A stretch of DNA of 10,208 bases. It comes from JBHIER01 sp046760705 [NCBI: bacterium]. GTDB lineage: Bacteria; JBHIER01; G020348925. The notes under the pieces were generated by a model, which did not search any database, was not told the DNA's origin, and saw nothing but the letters and a program-made list of their open reading frames with translations. Below, piece after piece: positions 1,327-8,794 of the stretch. The DNA lies in the NCBI GenBank assembly GCA_046760705.1, contig JBHIER010000078.1, positions 1 through 10,208 on the forward strand. The letters are read 5' to 3'. The position numbers and the translations under genes were made by a program. Within the stretch, counting starts at the first letter, position 1; each line of letters opens with the position of its first letter.

Positions 1327-3546
1327 ATGCACACCTTTGTTGAGAAGCAGAAAAGCAGATTTTTTGGGGAAGTCCGGTTGATCTCTGCGGTTGTTTTTGT
1401 CGCCGGACTGGCGGTGGCTCTGGCCGGTTCTGTTTCGGCGCAAAAGATCGTCCTCGATCCGACGGCCATCGACTTTGGTAAGGTATTGATCGGTGAGTCT
1501 GCCCAGCGAACTCTGACGATCTCGAATGAGGGGACCGAGGATCTGATTGTCTCCAGCGTATCCGTGTCCAGCCGGGCTTTCGCGGTGGACCCGACCTCCT
1601 TGACGGTTCCGGCTGACTCCTCCTCCTCAGTCTTAGTGACCTTCACGCCTGGAGGCGAGGGGCTCTTATCAGCCACCCTCACCGTGGCCAGTAACGATCC
1701 TGATGAGCCGACTGTGGAGATCCCCTTGAGCGGTACTGGAGCCTATCTGGAAGCAACCCTGTCTGTGGCCGACGGATACGGAGATCCTGGAACTTCGGGC
1801 AACAAGGTTTCTATTGTCATGGATAACACGTTGGGGGTGGCCGGATTGAATTTTGTCCTCAATTTCGACCCGGACGTACTGGAGCCCACGGAGGTGGTGG
1901 CCACGGCCAGAACCGCTGAGATGAGCATTTTCAACGAAAACCTGCAGTATGGGCCTGGCCAGGCGATCCTGGTCATCGCTGACCTCGAGGGAGACACGAT
2001 CCCTCCGGGATCGGGTCCGATAGCCACCTTCTACTTCGATGTGGCACCAGGGGCTCTTCTGGGGGAATACCCCCTCACCCTGACCGACGTTGTCCTGGCC
2101 GATGTGGAGGGCCAGGCGATCTATACCGACGTGGTCAACGGCACGTTTGTGGTCACCGGACCCTCCGGTGAGGCCTGGGCTGTTTCGTTGACGGCGACGA
2201 GCAGTGATCCTGAGGAGCCTTCCGTCGATCTCATCTTTGGCGTCGATCCTGAGGGGACGGATGAGTTTGATCCTGACCTCGACGATCTTGCGGCCCCACC
2301 TCCTCCTGGGAGAGAGTTCACGGCGTACTTCTCCATTGGTGGGCTCTTTGATAAGCTGACTAAGGATATCCGAAGTTCCACGGTTCTGACCGTAGCCTGG
2401 ACCCTGGTGACCGAAGGGAGGGGCGGAACGCTGACGTGGGATCCTGAGAGTCTGCCCCACGATGCTCAGTTAGTGATTGACGGCTCGGACATGAGCGTAA
2501 CTGGGTCTATGGAGTTTGCTGAGGATGATACACTCACGATCACTTACACCTATCAGGATCAGACGCCACCAGCCGATGTGACCGACCTGCTGGGGCTGGC
2601 AGGTGATCGTAAGGCAATCTTGACGTGGACGGCCAGCGTCTCCGGGGATGTCCGGGGGTACAAGGTCTACGTCGATAGCGCCGGTGTCCGGGTGGACGAG
2701 ATCGATGTGGGCGACGTGACCTATTTCGAGGTGGGGGGGTTGGCCAATCTGGTCACCTATACCTTCACCGTCACCGCATACGACGAGGTGGGCAACGAGA
2801 GTTTTGGGGTTTCGGTCGATGTGGTGCCCAATCCAGGATACTACGGCGCAGTGATGCTGACGTTGGGGAGCAGCGCTCACGAGGATACAGCTCGGGTGTT
2901 CTTCGGGCTTGATCCTGAGGCCAGCGATGGTCTCGATGCAGGTCTGGATATACCCTGTCCGCCGGACCCGCCGTTACCACCAGAATTGAAGGCTTACTTC
3001 CCACTCGATCATCCCGACTTTCCAAAGCTCTGCACCGACATTCGGAACTCCCTGGTTGAGGCGATAACATGGATCCTCGTGACTGAGGGGACCGGGGGTG
3101 AGATCTGCTGGGATCCGGACGATCTGCCGGAAAGCGGCCAGTTCATTCTGAACGACGAGATCAACATGAGGGATGAGAGCTGTGCGCAGTTTGCTGCCAA
3201 TGATACATTGACAATCTTTTACAGTGTCTGGGTCTCCGTTGAGCCCTATCGGGAGACCCCTATCCCTGAAGAGTACGTGCTGGTTCAGAACTACCCCAAT
3301 CCTTTCAACCCGGAGACGACCATTGAGTATCGGCTGCCGGAGTCCGGGGAGGTGAGGTTGGAGGTGTTCAATCTCCTCGGACAGCATATCCGGACGCTGG
3401 TCGATGGGAGGCAAGAGGTGGGCTATTATGCCGTCACCTGGGACGGGATCGGCGACGACGGTGCGCCGGTGGCCAGCGGTGTCTACTTCTACCGGCTCCA
3501 GGCTGGAGAGTTTACGGCCACCAGATCGATGCTGCTGCTGAAGTGA
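1327..3546 (+). CDS. Secreted multidomain protein: ASH/HYDIN-like, cohesin-like, FnIII and T9SS-type tail
   Basis: This is a 739-residue exported protein. Residues 1-38 are a signal peptide: basic start, hydrophobic core (LISAVVFVAGLAVALAG), and likely cleavage after SVSA. Residues 40-138 resemble an ASH/HYDIN ('choice-of-anchor D') domain, with DFGKVLIGES, LTISNEGTEDL and VASNDPDEP. Residues 141-277 look like a cohesin-type beta-sandwich (VAGLNFVLNFDPDVLE, IATFYFDVAPG). Residues 284-408 and 507-634 are two copies of one unnamed module (FGxDPE, PP-rich turn, AYF, DIR, LVTEGxGG, WDP, DTLTI). Residues 413-502 between them are FnIII-like. Residues 652-739 are the sorting domain (VQNYPNPFNPETTIEYRLP ... 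GVYFYRLQAGEF). All four cysteines are in the second module. The start has a strong ribosome-binding site and the gene ends at a clear terminator, so it is probably monocistronic. A surface adhesive or scaffolding role is inferred; no catalytic motif is seen. Confidence 0.88.
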   Translation: MHTFVEKQKSRFFGEVRLISAVVFVAGLAVALAGSVSAQKIVLDPTAIDFGKVLIGESAQRTLTISNEGTEDLIVSSVSVSSRAFAVDPTSLTVPADSSSSVLVTFTPGGEGLLSATLTVASNDPDEPTVEIPLSGTGAYLEATLSVADGYGDPGTSGNKVSIVMDNTLGVAGLNFVLNFDPDVLEPTEVVATARTAEMSIFNENLQYGPGQAILVIADLEGDTIPPGSGPIATFYFDVAPGALLGEYPLTLTDVVLADVEGQAIYTDVVNGTFVVTGPSGEAWAVSLTATSSDPEEPSVDLIFGVDPEGTDEFDPDLDDLAAPPPPGREFTAYFSIGGLFDKLTKDIRSSTVLTVAWTLVTEGRGGTLTWDPESLPHDAQLVIDGSDMSVTGSMEFAEDDTLTITYTYQDQTPPADVTDLLGLAGDRKAILTWTASVSGDVRGYKVYVDSAGVRVDEIDVGDVTYFEVGGLANLVTYTFTVTAYDEVGNESFGVSVDVVPNPGYYGAVMLTLGSSAHEDTARVFFGLDPEASDGLDAGLDIPCPPDPPLPPELKAYFPLDHPDFPKLCTDIRNSLVEAITWILVTEGTGGEICWDPDDLPESGQFILNDEINMRDESCAQFAANDTLTIFYSVWVSVEPYRETPIPEEYVLVQNYPNPFNPETTIEYRLPESGEVRLEVFNLLGQHIRTLVDGRQEVGYYAVTWDGIGDDGAPVASGVYFYRLQAGEFTATRSMLLLK

Positions 3547-4484: not shown

Positions 4485-4816
4485 GTGCTTACAAGACCTA
4501 CACCTATTTCTGCTTTGGTCTTCGATTTCGCGGTTGAAATCGCTGAAGCAAGGCGGAAACGGCCGATGCTGTTGTGGACAGCCTTGCTGAGGTTAAGCAG
4601 ATCCTATCGGCCGATGGCAGGGCTGGTGCGCTTCAATTGTTTCTCCGGGAATCCGAAGTTGTTTGCCATTTGTCAAGTTTAGTCCTTGACAATCTGCCGC
4701 GGCTGAAATGCGAGATTATGTATGGGATTTTCGACGCCCATCTCCACGTTTCTACTACGAAAGGAAAGGATGGAGGGTTTTCATGCCATTACAGGAACCG
4801 AAAGGGAGCGATTTAG
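4485..4816 (+). pseudogene. Possible small helical-protein gene upstream of moxR, frame-broken
   Basis: GTG 4485 follows AGGGAG (4472-4477) by seven bases and the previous stop by eleven. The first frame reads ISALVFDFAVEIAEA and then degrades into arginine-rich sequence. The -1 frame picks up at 4553 with AETADAVVDSLAEVKQILSA, followed by GALQLFLRESEVVCHLSSLV, and ends at TAG 4814-4816. One added base near 4551 (CAAGG to CAAAGG) would join them into a helical protein of about 110 residues. Its 3' end overlaps the moxR start by 34 bases, and the last 35 or so residues (after about 4712) look less convincing. There is no clear transmembrane segment and no recognised family. The case rests on the good ribosome-binding site and the coding-like composition on both sides of the break. 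Confidence 0.35.
4523..4542. repeat. Seven-base inverted repeat in the region before moxR
   Basis: CGATTTC (4523-4529) and GAAATCG (4536-4542) form a perfect hairpin with a six-base loop. CTTC and GAAG just outside can extend it across a bulge. It lies inside the doubtful small gene upstream of moxR, so it may be chance or a leader structure. Confidence 0.3.
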
Positions 4817-5787
4817 AGACGATCCAGCGGTTGAAGACCGCTCGGGATAACATCGTCAGGGAGATCAGGAAGGTGATCGTGGGCCAGGACCAGATCATTG
4901 ACGAGTTGATGATCGCCCTTTTGGCCAGCGGCCATTGCCTCATCATCGGCGTGCCGGGGTTAGCCAAGACATTGCTCATCAGTACGCTGGCCGAAGTGCT
5001 CAATCTGAAGTTCAGCCGCATACAGTTCACCCCGGATCTGATGCCCTCTGATATTACGGGCACCGAGATCATTGAGGAGGACGTCTCCACCGGCCGGAAG
5101 GCCTTCAAATTTGTGAGAGGGCCGGTCTTTGCCAACATCATCCTGGCCGATGAGATCAACCGAACTCCTCCCAAGACCCAGTCGGCTTTGCTTCAGGCCA
5201 TGCAGGAACATCAGGTGACGGCGGCCGGCGAAACGTACACCCTGAGTGAGCCCTTCTATGTGTTGGCCACCCAGAACCCCATAGAACAGGAGGGAACTTA
5301 TCCGCTGCCTGAAGCCCAGTTGGACCGGTTCATGTTCAACATCTGGATCGATTACCCCCGTAGCTCCGAGGAGGAGGAGATCGTTAAGACCACTACCAGC
5401 GCCTACAGTGCTGAGCTCACTCAGGTCCTGAGCGCTGAAGACATTGTGGCCTTGCAACGTCTGGTGCGAAAGGTGCCGGTGCCCCCCCACGTGATCCAGT
5501 ATGCAGTGAAATTGGCCCGAAACACAAGGCCGGGCAACGATGGCATACCGAAGTTTATCAGCGACTGGGTGAGCTGGGGGGCCGGTCCCCGGGCATCTCA
5601 ATACATGATCTTAGGAGCCAAAACGAAAGCCGTGCTCGACGGTCGATATGAAGCCTCCTGTGAGGATGTGCAGGCGGTGGTCCTGCCCGTGCTGAGACAC
5701 AGAATTGTGACCAACTTTAACGCCGAAGCCGACGGTGTGGATACGGTCACCATCGTCAATGAACTCCTAAAGACGGTCAAAGAGTGA
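4783..5787 (+). CDS. moxR: MoxR-family AAA+ ATPase
   Basis: This is a 334-residue cytoplasmic ATPase of the MoxR branch of AAA+ proteins, which act as chaperones for partner proteins with VWA domains. Walker A is GVPGLAKT (56-63), with the Ala before Lys common in this family. Walker B is IILADEINR (119-127), followed by the MoxR-typical TPPKTQSALLQAMQEHQVT (128-146). Sensor 1 is ATQNP (162-166), then EQEGTYPLPEAQLDRF (168-183). The sensor 2 region is GAGPRAS (266-272). Length is normal for the family. ATG 4783 is chosen because GGAGGG (4772-4777) precedes it by five bases; an in-frame ATG at 4708 would add 25 unrelated residues and lacks a ribosome-binding site. The next gene starts four bases after the stop, so coexpression and partnership with it are likely. 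The client process is not known. Confidence 0.95.
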   Translation: MPLQEPKGSDLETIQRLKTARDNIVREIRKVIVGQDQIIDELMIALLASGHCLIIGVPGLAKTLLISTLAEVLNLKFSRIQFTPDLMPSDITGTEIIEEDVSTGRKAFKFVRGPVFANIILADEINRTPPKTQSALLQAMQEHQVTAAGETYTLSEPFYVLATQNPIEQEGTYPLPEAQLDRFMFNIWIDYPRSSEEEEIVKTTTSAYSAELTQVLSAEDIVALQRLVRKVPVPPHVIQYAVKLARNTRPGNDGIPKFISDWVSWGAGPRASQYMILGAKTKAVLDGRYEASCEDVQAVVLPVLRHRIVTNFNAEADGVDTVTIVNELLKTVKE

Positions 5788-5791
5788 AGGA

Positions 5792-6685
5792 ATGAAAGAC
5801 TACCGCCGTTTCCTCAACCCTGAGGTTGTGTCGAGACTGTCCAACATCGACCTCAAGGCAAGACTTGTGGTTGAAGGATTCATTACCGGCCTTCACAAAA
5901 GCCCCTATCACGGGTTCAGTGTGGAGTTCGCCGAGCACCGCCAGTACATGCCCGGCGATTCGATCCGGCACATCGACTGGAAGGTGTACGCCAAATCGGA
6001 TCGGTTTTACGTCAAGGAGTATGAGGAGGAGACGAACCTCAAGGCCTATCTTCTGCTGGATGCCAGCGGTTCGATGGGGTACCGGTCAGACGCCATCCCC
6101 AAACTGGAATACGGCTCCTACCTGTCTGCAGCCCTGAGCTACCTCATGCTCATTCAGCGGGACGCCGTGGGGTTGGCCATCTTCGATTCCCGCATTCGTC
6201 GCTACATCGCCCCCAGATCGGTGAAGAGCCAGCTGAGTGTGGTGCTGAAAGAATTGAACGTCGTCGAGGCTGGGGAGACAACCGACGTCTCATCGACCTT
6301 CCATCAGTTGGCAGAGCGGATCAAACGCCGTGGGTTGATCGTCATCATCTCCGATCTCTTCGACGATCCGCAAAGGATACTTCTGGGCTTGAAACATTTC
6401 CGACATAGAAAACATGAGGTGATCGTTTTCCACATCCTCGATCCCTACGAACGCACCTTCTCCTATCGGGATGAGGCCAGATTCAAGGACATGGAGACGG
6501 GGGAGGAACTGCCCACTCAACCGTGGCACATCTGGTCCGAGTATCGCCAACTGATGTCGGAACGGATCGAGACGTTCAAACGGGAATGTAGAGCGGACCT
6601 CATCGACTACGTCCTCATGGACACGTCGGTGGACTTCGACTACGCCCTCTTCTCCTACCTGAATAAGAGAAAAAGGTTGGGCTGA
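5792..6685 (+). CDS. DUF58 family protein with VWA-like fold
   Basis: This is a 297-residue protein of the DUF58 family, the usual partner of MoxR. The N-terminal family signature is FLNPEVVSRLSNIDLKARLV (7-26), then GLHKSPYHGFSVEFAEHRQY (33-52), PGDSIRHIDWKVYAKSDRFY (54-73) and KEYEEETNL (75-83). The VWA-like half begins with LLLDASGSMGY (87-97), whose DxSGS is a metal-ion-dependent adhesion site; TTD (163-165) and ISDLFDD (186-192) supply the other expected loops. No transmembrane helix or signal peptide is seen, so it is probably cytoplasmic or peripheral. The start is confirmed by alignment of the conserved N-terminus. GAAGGA lies directly before the ATG, an unusually tight ribosome-binding site, so translation is probably coupled to moxR, whose stop is four bases away. 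It is probably the soluble client or adaptor of the ATPase. Confidence 0.93.
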   Translation: MKDYRRFLNPEVVSRLSNIDLKARLVVEGFITGLHKSPYHGFSVEFAEHRQYMPGDSIRHIDWKVYAKSDRFYVKEYEEETNLKAYLLLDASGSMGYRSDAIPKLEYGSYLSAALSYLMLIQRDAVGLAIFDSRIRRYIAPRSVKSQLSVVLKELNVVEAGETTDVSSTFHQLAERIKRRGLIVIISDLFDDPQRILLGLKHFRHRKHEVIVFHILDPYERTFSYRDEARFKDMETGEELPTQPWHIWSEYRQLMSERIETFKRECRADLIDYVLMDTSVDFDYALFSYLNKRKRLG

Positions 6686-6700
6686 GGCCCATTTCATCCC

Positions 6701-8794
6701 ATGGCATTCCTCAATTCAATCTTTCTGTTTGCATTGGCAGCGGTGACGGTCCCTCTGCTCATCCATCTGTTCAGCCGGCAGAGGGTGAAGACCGTCTATT
6801 TCTCGTCGCTGGAGTTTCTGAAGGTGCTCCAGCGGCAGAAGATGCGGAGGGTGAAGCTTCGGCAGCTCATCCTGTTGCTTCTCAGAACCCTCATCGTCCT
6901 GTTCGTCGTTCTGGCCTTTGCTCGGCCTGCTCTGAAGGGGGTCTTCTCTGCCGGGCTGAGCGCACGGGCCAGGACGACCGCGGTCATTCTCTTGGACAAC
7001 TCCTTCAGCATGGGATTGAGCACGCCCCGGGGCATTCTCTTCGACCGGGCCAAGGAGAAGGCCATGGAGGTGGTCGAGCTGCTCAAGGAGGGCGATGAAG
7101 CCTGGTTTCTTCTGGCCTCGGATGTCCCTGCGGTTGTGCACCATACTCAGGATTTCGCCGGTCTGAGAAGGGTTATTGAGGAGTCTGATCTGTCCAATCG
7201 GACGACGGACGTCCGGGCTGCCCTGATTTCGGCCACCGAACTGTTAACCAGATCGAAAAATGCCAACCTCGAGGTCTACCTCATCACCGACATGCGGAGA
7301 AACGGCTGGCGGGACATTTTGCAGGGCGAAGCCCTGCCCTTGGCCGAGGGGTCCACTCTCTTTGTCCTTCCGGTGGCCGAGAGAAGAGATGAAAATGTGA
7401 GCATCGATGGGGTGGAGTTTCTCGATCGCCTTCTGGAGGCCGGAAAACCGATCAATCTTCAGGCCACGGTGGCGAACCATTCGGATCGTAAGAGAGAAGA
7501 CCTGTTGGTCCAGTTGTACGTGGAGGGCAAACGGATCGGCCAGACAACACTGGATCTTGAAGCGGACCGGACGAGCAGAGCAGACTTTGTGGCTGTGTTC
7601 GACGAGCCGGGCCAGGTGTCCGGCTATGTCGAGATTGAGGAGGACGACCTACCTCTCGATGACCGGCGGTACTTCGCTATCAACGTGCCTGAGAAGATAA
7701 GGGTGCTCATCATCGGGCGCACGGAGGCCGATGGACGTTATCTCAAATTGGCCCTCAACCCCTTCGAAACGGACCGTTCCCTCATCATTCCGACGGTGAC
7801 TTCCGTGGATCGCCTGGGCCGATATGCCCTACCAGACTTCGATGTGATCCTGTTGGCCAACGTACCCCGTCTCAGCGAGGCCCAGCTTTCCCGATTGGAG
7901 AGCTATGTCGAGGGGGGCCGGGGCGTAGTCATCCTTCTGGGCAATGACATCGATCCGAGATTTTATAACTCGCAGCTTCTGCCGACACTCTTCCCGGCCA
8001 CGTTGAAATCTCCCATCGGAACAATCGGGGAGAAGGGTTCATTTCTCACCTTGGGCACGATCGATTATGATCACCCCATCTTTAAGGGGCTATTCTCCGA
8101 GAAGAATGAATTTGAATCCCCAAGGTTTTATCTGGTCTACGATGTGAGCCCGTCCGCTGGTGTGGAGCCGATCATCTTCTACAGTAATGGCAGAGTGGCG
8201 TTGGCTGAAGCGAGGACAGGACAGGGGAGGACTATGTTGTTCTCTTCGGCCGCTGACCCAAATTGGACCGATCTGGTGCGAAAGGGCATCTATTTGCCAC
8301 TTCTCTACAGAGTGGTGCAGTACCTGGCCACCGATCTGGCTGCGCTGGAGGAGCGAAACCTCGTCGGGTCAGCGGTGAGAAAGGAGGTGGGCGGCCTCGA
8401 GCTCGGCCAGGGAGTTCTGTGTGTCGAGCCCGACGGGGAGGAGCGGGCCATCGAGCCGAAAAGCTCCGGCAGCGCTTTTCTTTTGGAGTTTGAACATACT
8501 GAAGCGCCCGGCATTTACCGGTTTCTCTCAGGCCCCAGGGCCATCAAGAGCTTTGCCGTGAACGTGGACCCCGCTGAATCGGATCTGACCACAATAGAGA
8601 CAGACCAGGTTGAGGAGGTGTTGAAACCCATTCCAGTCCATATTATTGGCTCAGGCCAAACTATCGAGGAGTTTGTCCTCCGGGCAAGGTACGGTCGAGA
8701 GTTGTGGAAACAGTTTCTGTTGGTGGCATTCATTCTTATGTGCGTTGAGATGTTGATTGCCAGAGAAGGGCGAGAGAATCGTCTGTCCGGATAG
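6701..8794 (+). CDS. BatA-like membrane protein with double-TM N-terminus and VWA domain
   Basis: This is a 697-residue inner-membrane protein. Residues 5-23 and 54-76 are two transmembrane helices separated by a basic stretch with SLEFLKVLQRQKMRRVKLRQ (36-55), the known 'N-terminal double-transmembrane' (BatA-type) architecture. Residues 92-225 form a VWA domain with DNSFSM (99-104), TTD (168-170) and YLITD (193-197), so its metal site looks intact. Residues about 233-328 look like an Ig-type beta domain. Residues 333-435 resemble a class I glutamine-amidotransferase-like fold (VRVLIIGR, FDVILLANVP, GGRGVVILLGN), with no convincing catalytic triad. A third helix lies near 671-688, before a short charged tail. 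The gene starts 15 bases after the DUF58 stop; the nearest Shine-Dalgarno-like GAGG is 13 bases away, so coupling is likely. It probably forms the membrane platform of the MoxR system. Confidence 0.9.
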   Translation: MAFLNSIFLFALAAVTVPLLIHLFSRQRVKTVYFSSLEFLKVLQRQKMRRVKLRQLILLLLRTLIVLFVVLAFARPALKGVFSAGLSARARTTAVILLDNSFSMGLSTPRGILFDRAKEKAMEVVELLKEGDEAWFLLASDVPAVVHHTQDFAGLRRVIEESDLSNRTTDVRAALISATELLTRSKNANLEVYLITDMRRNGWRDILQGEALPLAEGSTLFVLPVAERRDENVSIDGVEFLDRLLEAGKPINLQATVANHSDRKREDLLVQLYVEGKRIGQTTLDLEADRTSRADFVAVFDEPGQVSGYVEIEEDDLPLDDRRYFAINVPEKIRVLIIGRTEADGRYLKLALNPFETDRSLIIPTVTSVDRLGRYALPDFDVILLANVPRLSEAQLSRLESYVEGGRGVVILLGNDIDPRFYNSQLLPTLFPATLKSPIGTIGEKGSFLTLGTIDYDHPIFKGLFSEKNEFESPRFYLVYDVSPSAGVEPIIFYSNGRVALAEARTGQGRTMLFSSAADPNWTDLVRKGIYLPLLYRVVQYLATDLAALEERNLVGSAVRKEVGGLELGQGVLCVEPDGEERAIEPKSSGSAFLLEFEHTEAPGIYRFLSGPRAIKSFAVNVDPAESDLTTIETDQVEEVLKPIPVHIIGSGQTIEEFVLRARYGRELWKQFLLVAFILMCVEMLIAREGRENRLSG

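Follow-up and report, generated by a model that had tools for sequence, protein, structure and literature searches.

An unnamed module duplicated in a predicted T9SS cargo protein, with four cysteines confined to the second copy

The window analysed here is a stretch of 10,208 nucleotides (positions 1 to 10,208 of contig JBHIER010000078.1, GenBank assembly GCA_046760705.1, JBHIER01 sp046760705). It carries a gene for a 739-residue protein in which a signal peptide, a HYDIN/ASH domain, a cohesin domain, a first module, an FnIII domain, a second module and a T9SS tail follow one another from the N-terminus to the C-terminus. In positions of the window, and with the source of each assignment in brackets, these features are:

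1327..3546, + strand: predicted secreted multidomain protein of 739 aa (ORF translation, Pfam and NCBIfam)
1327..1440, + strand: putative signal peptide, about residues 1-38, likely cut between VSA and Q (read from the sequence)
1444..1734, + strand: HYDIN/ASH Ig-like domain, residues 40-136 (PF22544, E 4.6e-15)
1807..2148, + strand: cohesin domain, residues 161-274 (PF00963, E 1.3e-6, above the curated cut-off)
2176..2550, + strand: module copy 1, residues 284-408, without cysteine (copy alignment, profile and tree)
2605..2802, + strand: FnIII domain, residues 427-492, separating the two module copies (PF00041, E 1.9e-6)
2845..3228, + strand: module copy 2, residues 507-634, holding all four cysteines (copy alignment, profile and tree)
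3292..3525, + strand: T9SS type A C-terminal sorting domain, residues 656-733 (TIGR04183, E 1.3e-8)

The 739-residue protein is probably exported to the cell surface. By eye, its N-terminus has the features of a signal peptide, with a basic start, a hydrophobic core and small residues ahead of Q, and residues 30-127 also match choice_anch_D (NCBIfam NF012200, E 3.2e-17). At the other end, the tail scores 34.7 bits with TIGR04183 against a cut-off of 23, which places the protein among T9SS cargo. FlgD_ig (PF13860) matches residues 665-726 (E 7.9e-9, 35.8 bits versus a cut-off of 27), and with Por_Secre_tail (PF18962) the tail reaches 21.6 bits, under the Pfam cut-off of 27. A search for the T9SS translocon SprA was positive for 11 of 12 related genomes (all except G002) and negative for all 14 controls.

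The neighbouring genes comprise a MoxR-DUF58-BatA group and a gene for RNA 3'-phosphate cyclase; none has an evident link to the 739-residue protein. The MoxR ATPase, DUF58 and BatA/VWA genes stand in a row on the + strand (window positions 4708-8794), a grouping that is ordinary in such bacteria; the best identity of the DUF58 neighbour is 69%, with a Zixiibacteriota record, and KSB1 records reach 65%, values that point to a source in the FCB group without fixing its phylum. Positions 829-1203 of the + strand encode a small protein, part of which looks like a coiled coil and whose C-terminus has a hydrophobic segment; it matches no Pfam family over the cut-off.

The protein resembles the T9SS type A proteins (TIGR04183/PF18962) of the Bacteroidetes/FCB bacteria in its NYPNPFNP sorting tail and in being an exported multidomain protein that includes Ig-like and FnIII domains, and relatives join the same module straight to the tail. 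The module, however, is distinct from the sorting domain, which it precedes, and is unnamed. The cohesin match (E 1.3e-6) is shared with cellulosomal scaffoldins, but it is limited to residues 161-274 and PF00963 does not match the duplicated modules. Similarly, FnIII and HYDIN/ASH Ig-like repeats occur within the same protein, yet the modules match neither fn3 nor ASH and are set apart by their D-rich/PP loop and D-x-R site.

The initial annotation described the segments 284-408 and 507-634 as copies of one module, alignable along their length and separated by an FnIII-like domain, and the comparison made here bears this out. The copies, each of about 128 residues, align end to end with 42-43% identity; their local alignment scores 225, whereas shuffling copy 2 500 times gave scores that averaged 31 and never exceeded 52. 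All the motifs that had been listed are found (FG(V/L)DPE, the D-rich loop, the PP turn, AYF, KLxxDIR, LVTEGxGG, WDPxxLP and DTLTI), and the separator corresponds to residues 427-492, matched by Pfam fn3. At the aligned codons the two copies are 55% identical in DNA, and 29 of 56 identical residues are encoded by the same codon; consequently, the duplication is probably old. In a tree of 323 modules, the number left when duplicates and short pieces are removed from 365 matches, the copies are sisters with a support of 0.958, and the next node contains 123 modules. This placement supports the duplication that had been claimed.

The best explanation of the two segments is that they are members of an abundant, unnamed, beta-rich module of about 130 aa carried by T9SS-exported proteins of the FCB group. 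Both have the conserved G, D, PP and D-x-R of the family; its conserved A is kept in copy 2, whereas copy 1 has G there. The strongly conserved positions are G 528, A 533, D 538, PP 546-547 and D-x-R 572 and 574, given here in ORF numbering, which is one above protein numbering. A profile built from the two copies alone recognized members in 6 of 30 related genomes. With a 12-sequence profile and E values up to 0.001, members were found in 27 of 132 genomes from the phylum of G001 (Zixibacteria), 2 of 6 from the phylum of G002, 51 of 82 from the phylum of G008 (KSB1 and Calditrichota) and 92 of 149 from the class of G013 (Ignavibacteria). A 22-sequence profile, with E values up to 1e-5, detected them in 86 of 149 genomes from the phylum of G023 (Marinimicrobia); the genomes of this phylum and of the G013 class are samples of those groups. 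The module thus occurs in 258 of 518 genomes over five FCB-type groups, a total obtained with two profiles and two cut-offs. This tally is probably too low, since module 2 and the tail together match in two genomes, G093 and G094, that are not among the hits of the 12-sequence profile. The initial annotation linked similar motifs with exported proteins of Ignavibacteria-type genomes, and the count of 92 of 149 supports this link. The NYPNPF tail motif is present in 96 of 123 module-bearing ORFs and a GWNLIS-like motif in 57, counts taken from fetched loci many of which cut their ORF.

The earlier statement that no domain name is known for the module also stands, as Pfam and NCBIfam gave no convincing match for the members scanned. 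Within residues 284-408 and 507-634 of the window protein there was no match over a curated cut-off in either database; 12 members compared with Pfam and NCBIfam, and 22 (partly the same) compared with Pfam, gave isolated single-member matches with a best E of 0.0078. Searches with PHROGs and PADLOC yielded no match inside either module, and sequence searches of the PDB nothing credible for it. Positions 88-137 of the 143-position family profile weakly match two designed immunoglobulins, 8bl3 (E 0.0059) and 8bl6 (E 0.0088), no single stretch being significant alone. Exact-pattern scans of genome contigs and viral contigs with the two-copy alignment detected no relative, DNA-motif scans of the viral contigs returned L228 only, a diverged partial match, and the plasmid records contained no module match. 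No description of the module was found among the titles and abstract beginnings listed from the open PMC literature, and the portion of PMC3534657 consulted does not mention it.

In four proteins (L083, L084, L085 and L088) two modules flank a GWNLISVPV-type segment, for which Pfam scans of three proteins returned no match. The second module of relatives of this type is diverged: it lacks the ATDGxD loop but retains a PP-rich turn with a DxRF-like stretch after it.

The 739-residue protein contains only four cysteines, every one of them within copy 2, as the initial annotation had noted. Their codons are:

2956..2958, + strand: Cys544, codon TGT, in the D-rich/PP loop; proposed partner Cys569 (sequence, coupling and co-occurrence)
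3031..3033, + strand: Cys569, codon TGC, directly ahead of the conserved D-I-R; proposed partner Cys544 (sequence, coupling and co-occurrence)
3106..3108, + strand: Cys594, codon TGC, in the strand preceding WDP; proposed partner Cys619, a weak assignment (sequence and coupling)
3181..3183, + strand: Cys619, codon TGT, at an -SC- site preceding the last strands; proposed partner Cys594, a weak assignment (sequence and coupling)

An alignment with longer flanks places them at A322, T345, T370 and S394 of copy 1, which are the A, T, T and S sites named before. The copies being sisters and copy 1 having no cysteine, a gain in copy 2 is the simplest history, and we infer from the aligned sequences that copy 2 probably acquired its cysteines after the duplication. 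Closer relatives outside the sample could alter this history.

The four cysteines are separated by exactly 25 residues. The chance of equal spacing for four random sites in 128 is 0.0002, and that of all four cysteines falling in copy 2 is 0.0009, both for patterns noticed post hoc. Across the family, 105 different sets of spacings exist at these columns and the 25-25-25 set is found in one of 323 modules, copy 2 itself. The 25-residue pieces around the cysteines are mutually unlike: their best pairwise score, 19, was equalled in 697 of 1000 shuffles. We therefore rejected the spacing as a repeat or structural period; its equality is a coincidence.

Cysteines are sparse in the family. In profile-trimmed envelopes, 211 of the 323 modules have none, 86 have one, 19 two, six three and one, copy 2, four; when the extents are longer, four cysteines are found in 3 of 138 modules. 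In the other 322 modules, C occupies column 544 once, column 569 in 11 cases, column 594 once and column 619 never, and in none of them does it occupy more than one of these columns. The nearest module beyond the window (L139), 38% identical to copy 2 over 116 residues, does not have the four cysteines. The whole 739-residue query was also compared with sets of 132, 82 and 6 genomes; in the two larger sets, the scoring covered 8 or 13 candidates from each genome. The matches listed cover the tail, or module 2 and the tail, and start at residue 497 or beyond. At the 12 matched places the best alignments have 36-40% identity over module and tail, or over the tail alone, and the four cysteines are absent from the 13 modules there, which belong to relatives rather than to clear orthologues. 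Directly ahead of the tail, the position of module 2, is where relatives often have the module. The cysteine pattern of copy 2 is best read as a probable, lineage-specific double disulfide. Two proteins of the Zixibacteria group (L116 and L117) have module cysteines at other sites (DCYDAG, LCKEF, GCYKI and VCAG), which suggests independent additions of disulfides in other lineages.

The occurrence of a single cysteine in 86 of 323 modules means that a cysteine alone is no sign of a bond. As odd cysteines are tolerated in the family, those of copy 2 might be neutral, or might form bonds between molecules and multimerize the protein at the surface instead of acting within the module. We regard this as distinctly unlikely, considering that there are exactly four cysteines and no others in 739 residues, that the columns are coupled in pairs, and that four other modules (L108, L109, L114 and L364) offer parallels, each having a cysteine in the loop together with one ahead of DIR. 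Including copy 2, cysteines are present in both the loop (534-547) and the pre-DIR segment (566-572) in 5 of 323 modules, the loop having them in 18 and the pre-DIR segment in 22 (Fisher p 0.004 for co-occurrence); without the window and the near-duplicate L114 the figure is 3 of 320, with p = 0.069. None of the other modules among the 323 has cysteines at both 590-597 and 614-622.

Which cysteines pair was addressed by a mean-field coupling analysis of 321 modules, the window copies being left out; the sequences are divergent and their effective number is about 260. The pair 544-569 ranked 80 of 9180 (z 2.68) and the pair 594-619 ranked 613 (z 1.52), and the remaining four cysteine pairs had z from -0.18 to -2.71. 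The matching 544-569 plus 594-619 came out best in all 25 subsamples (70% each), which overlap and so provide a check of stability and no probability. The ranking was unchanged in the 308 modules that lack C at all four of these columns (z 2.43 for 544-569 and 1.27 for 594-619). Realignment with longer flanks put 544-569 at rank 69 and 594-619 at rank 782 of 11325, the other pairs having z of 0.02 or less. With coupling scores that are moderate, these data favour the pairing 544-569 and 594-619.

Any pairing is compatible with an even number of cysteines in an exported module, and either 544-594 with 569-619 or 544-619 with 569-594 could be envisaged. Neighbouring pairs of positions are coupled in a way that would suit such arrangements (543-593, z 2.88; 568-593, z 2.26; 570-617, z 2.02). 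However, z does not exceed 0.02 in either alignment for any of the four cysteine pairs involved in these arrangements, and every subsample returned the other matching, so that we consider these alternatives quite unlikely. A joint metal site would be another use of the four cysteines, and four in one module is as many as a tetrahedral site requires. Nevertheless, the module has no CxxC or CxxxC spacing, coupling is seen within 544/569 and within 594/619 and none between the pairs, and thiolate sites are rare in exported proteins, to which this one is predicted to belong. The coupling pattern ruled against a metal site as the first reading, and the binding of an ion or cluster appears very improbable.

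Within the favoured pairing, the two proposed bonds differ in strength. The 544-569 pair is the better supported, although 544 is more strongly coupled with 524 (z 5.3) and 520 (z 3.5) than with 569. The 594-619 pair is weak and less certain: 619 is more strongly coupled with 627 (z 3.6) than with 594, and the 619 column is sensitive to the alignment, copy 1 being shifted in the first alignment and placed at S394 in the second. In addition, the best antiparallel register of strands E and G leaves 594 about four residues from 619 (S394 being position 114 of the model) and not directly opposite. Overall, the suggestion of the initial annotation that copy 2 became stabilized by disulfides gains from the coupling, which favours this pairing, and from the parallels of 544-569 in other modules; it is likely, although not proven.

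The register was obtained with the copy-1 model, one of two AlphaFold models, both of poor quality, that were based on alignments of the two copies. With copy 2 first the mean pLDDT was 48.2; with copy 1 first it was 58.5, with a pTM of 0.54 and eight strands. A four-sequence alignment with L020 and L228 was too poorly aligned and was rejected. Nine strand pairs of the copy-1 model exceed a loose coupling threshold, the best diagonal being picked in each case with no null: five are antiparallel (A-B, A-E, C-D, E-G and F-G) and four parallel (A-D, B-C, C-E and F-H). The predicted fold is rich in beta strands, and a sandwich is probable. Foldseek found no PDB match with E up to 0.001 for this low-confidence model, and its best VIA Z, 4.7, is read as giving no information on kinship.

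The D-rich loop and D-x-R might form a calcium- or carbohydrate-binding module, the cysteines bracing the site of copy 2, a proposal compatible with the disulfide pairing favoured above. The strong conservation of the G, A, D, PP and D-x-R positions would fit such a role, as would the couplings D537-D571 (z 4.7) and D537-R573 (z 3.9), computed with the window included. The D and R could instead be partners in a buried salt bridge, and partial sequences may create artefactual coupling between conserved columns. Among many weak structural rows, vCBM60 (2xfd) and a calcium-dependent carbohydrate-binding module (2xhh) appear with Z of 4.0-4.1, but they tie with unrelated beta proteins and derive from the low-confidence model, and sequence comparison did not link the module convincingly to any CBM family. 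We view this proposal as possible, if on the unlikely side. Its extension to the whole family, as a major unnamed extracellular family of the FCB bacteria whose D-rich loop and D-x-R would bind calcium or glycan and in which separate lineages would each have braced that loop with disulfides at different places, seems unlikely. If it were true, no other member sampled would be braced as heavily as copy 2.

The explanation that we hold to be somewhat more likely than not is that of an unnamed module of T9SS cargo, duplicated around an FnIII domain, whose second copy then gained two disulfides within the module. Duplication around the FnIII domain would have produced a rod-like surface protein, of which the T9SS tail would display the N-terminal HYDIN/ASH and cohesin domains. 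The four cysteines, if oxidized, would make two bonds: C544-C569 would pin the D-rich/PP loop to the segment ahead of the conserved D-x-R, and C594-C619 would tie the WDP strand to the region past a DMR-like motif. Outside the cell, such bonds may make the copy closest to the sorting tail stiffer or shield it.

No new kind of system is described here. The module family is real, extracellular and unnamed, and is of greater interest than the cysteine pattern, which is a local curiosity. The data should be useful towards naming the module; a named profile would annotate many exported proteins from uncultured bacteria, and the family provides a natural series in which to ask how T9SS cargo gains disulfides. 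The module is greatly expanded in some genomes of the G013 class: one of them, G301, with 27 of its 58 candidates scored, has 27 or more module matches, and five others have 13 to 22.
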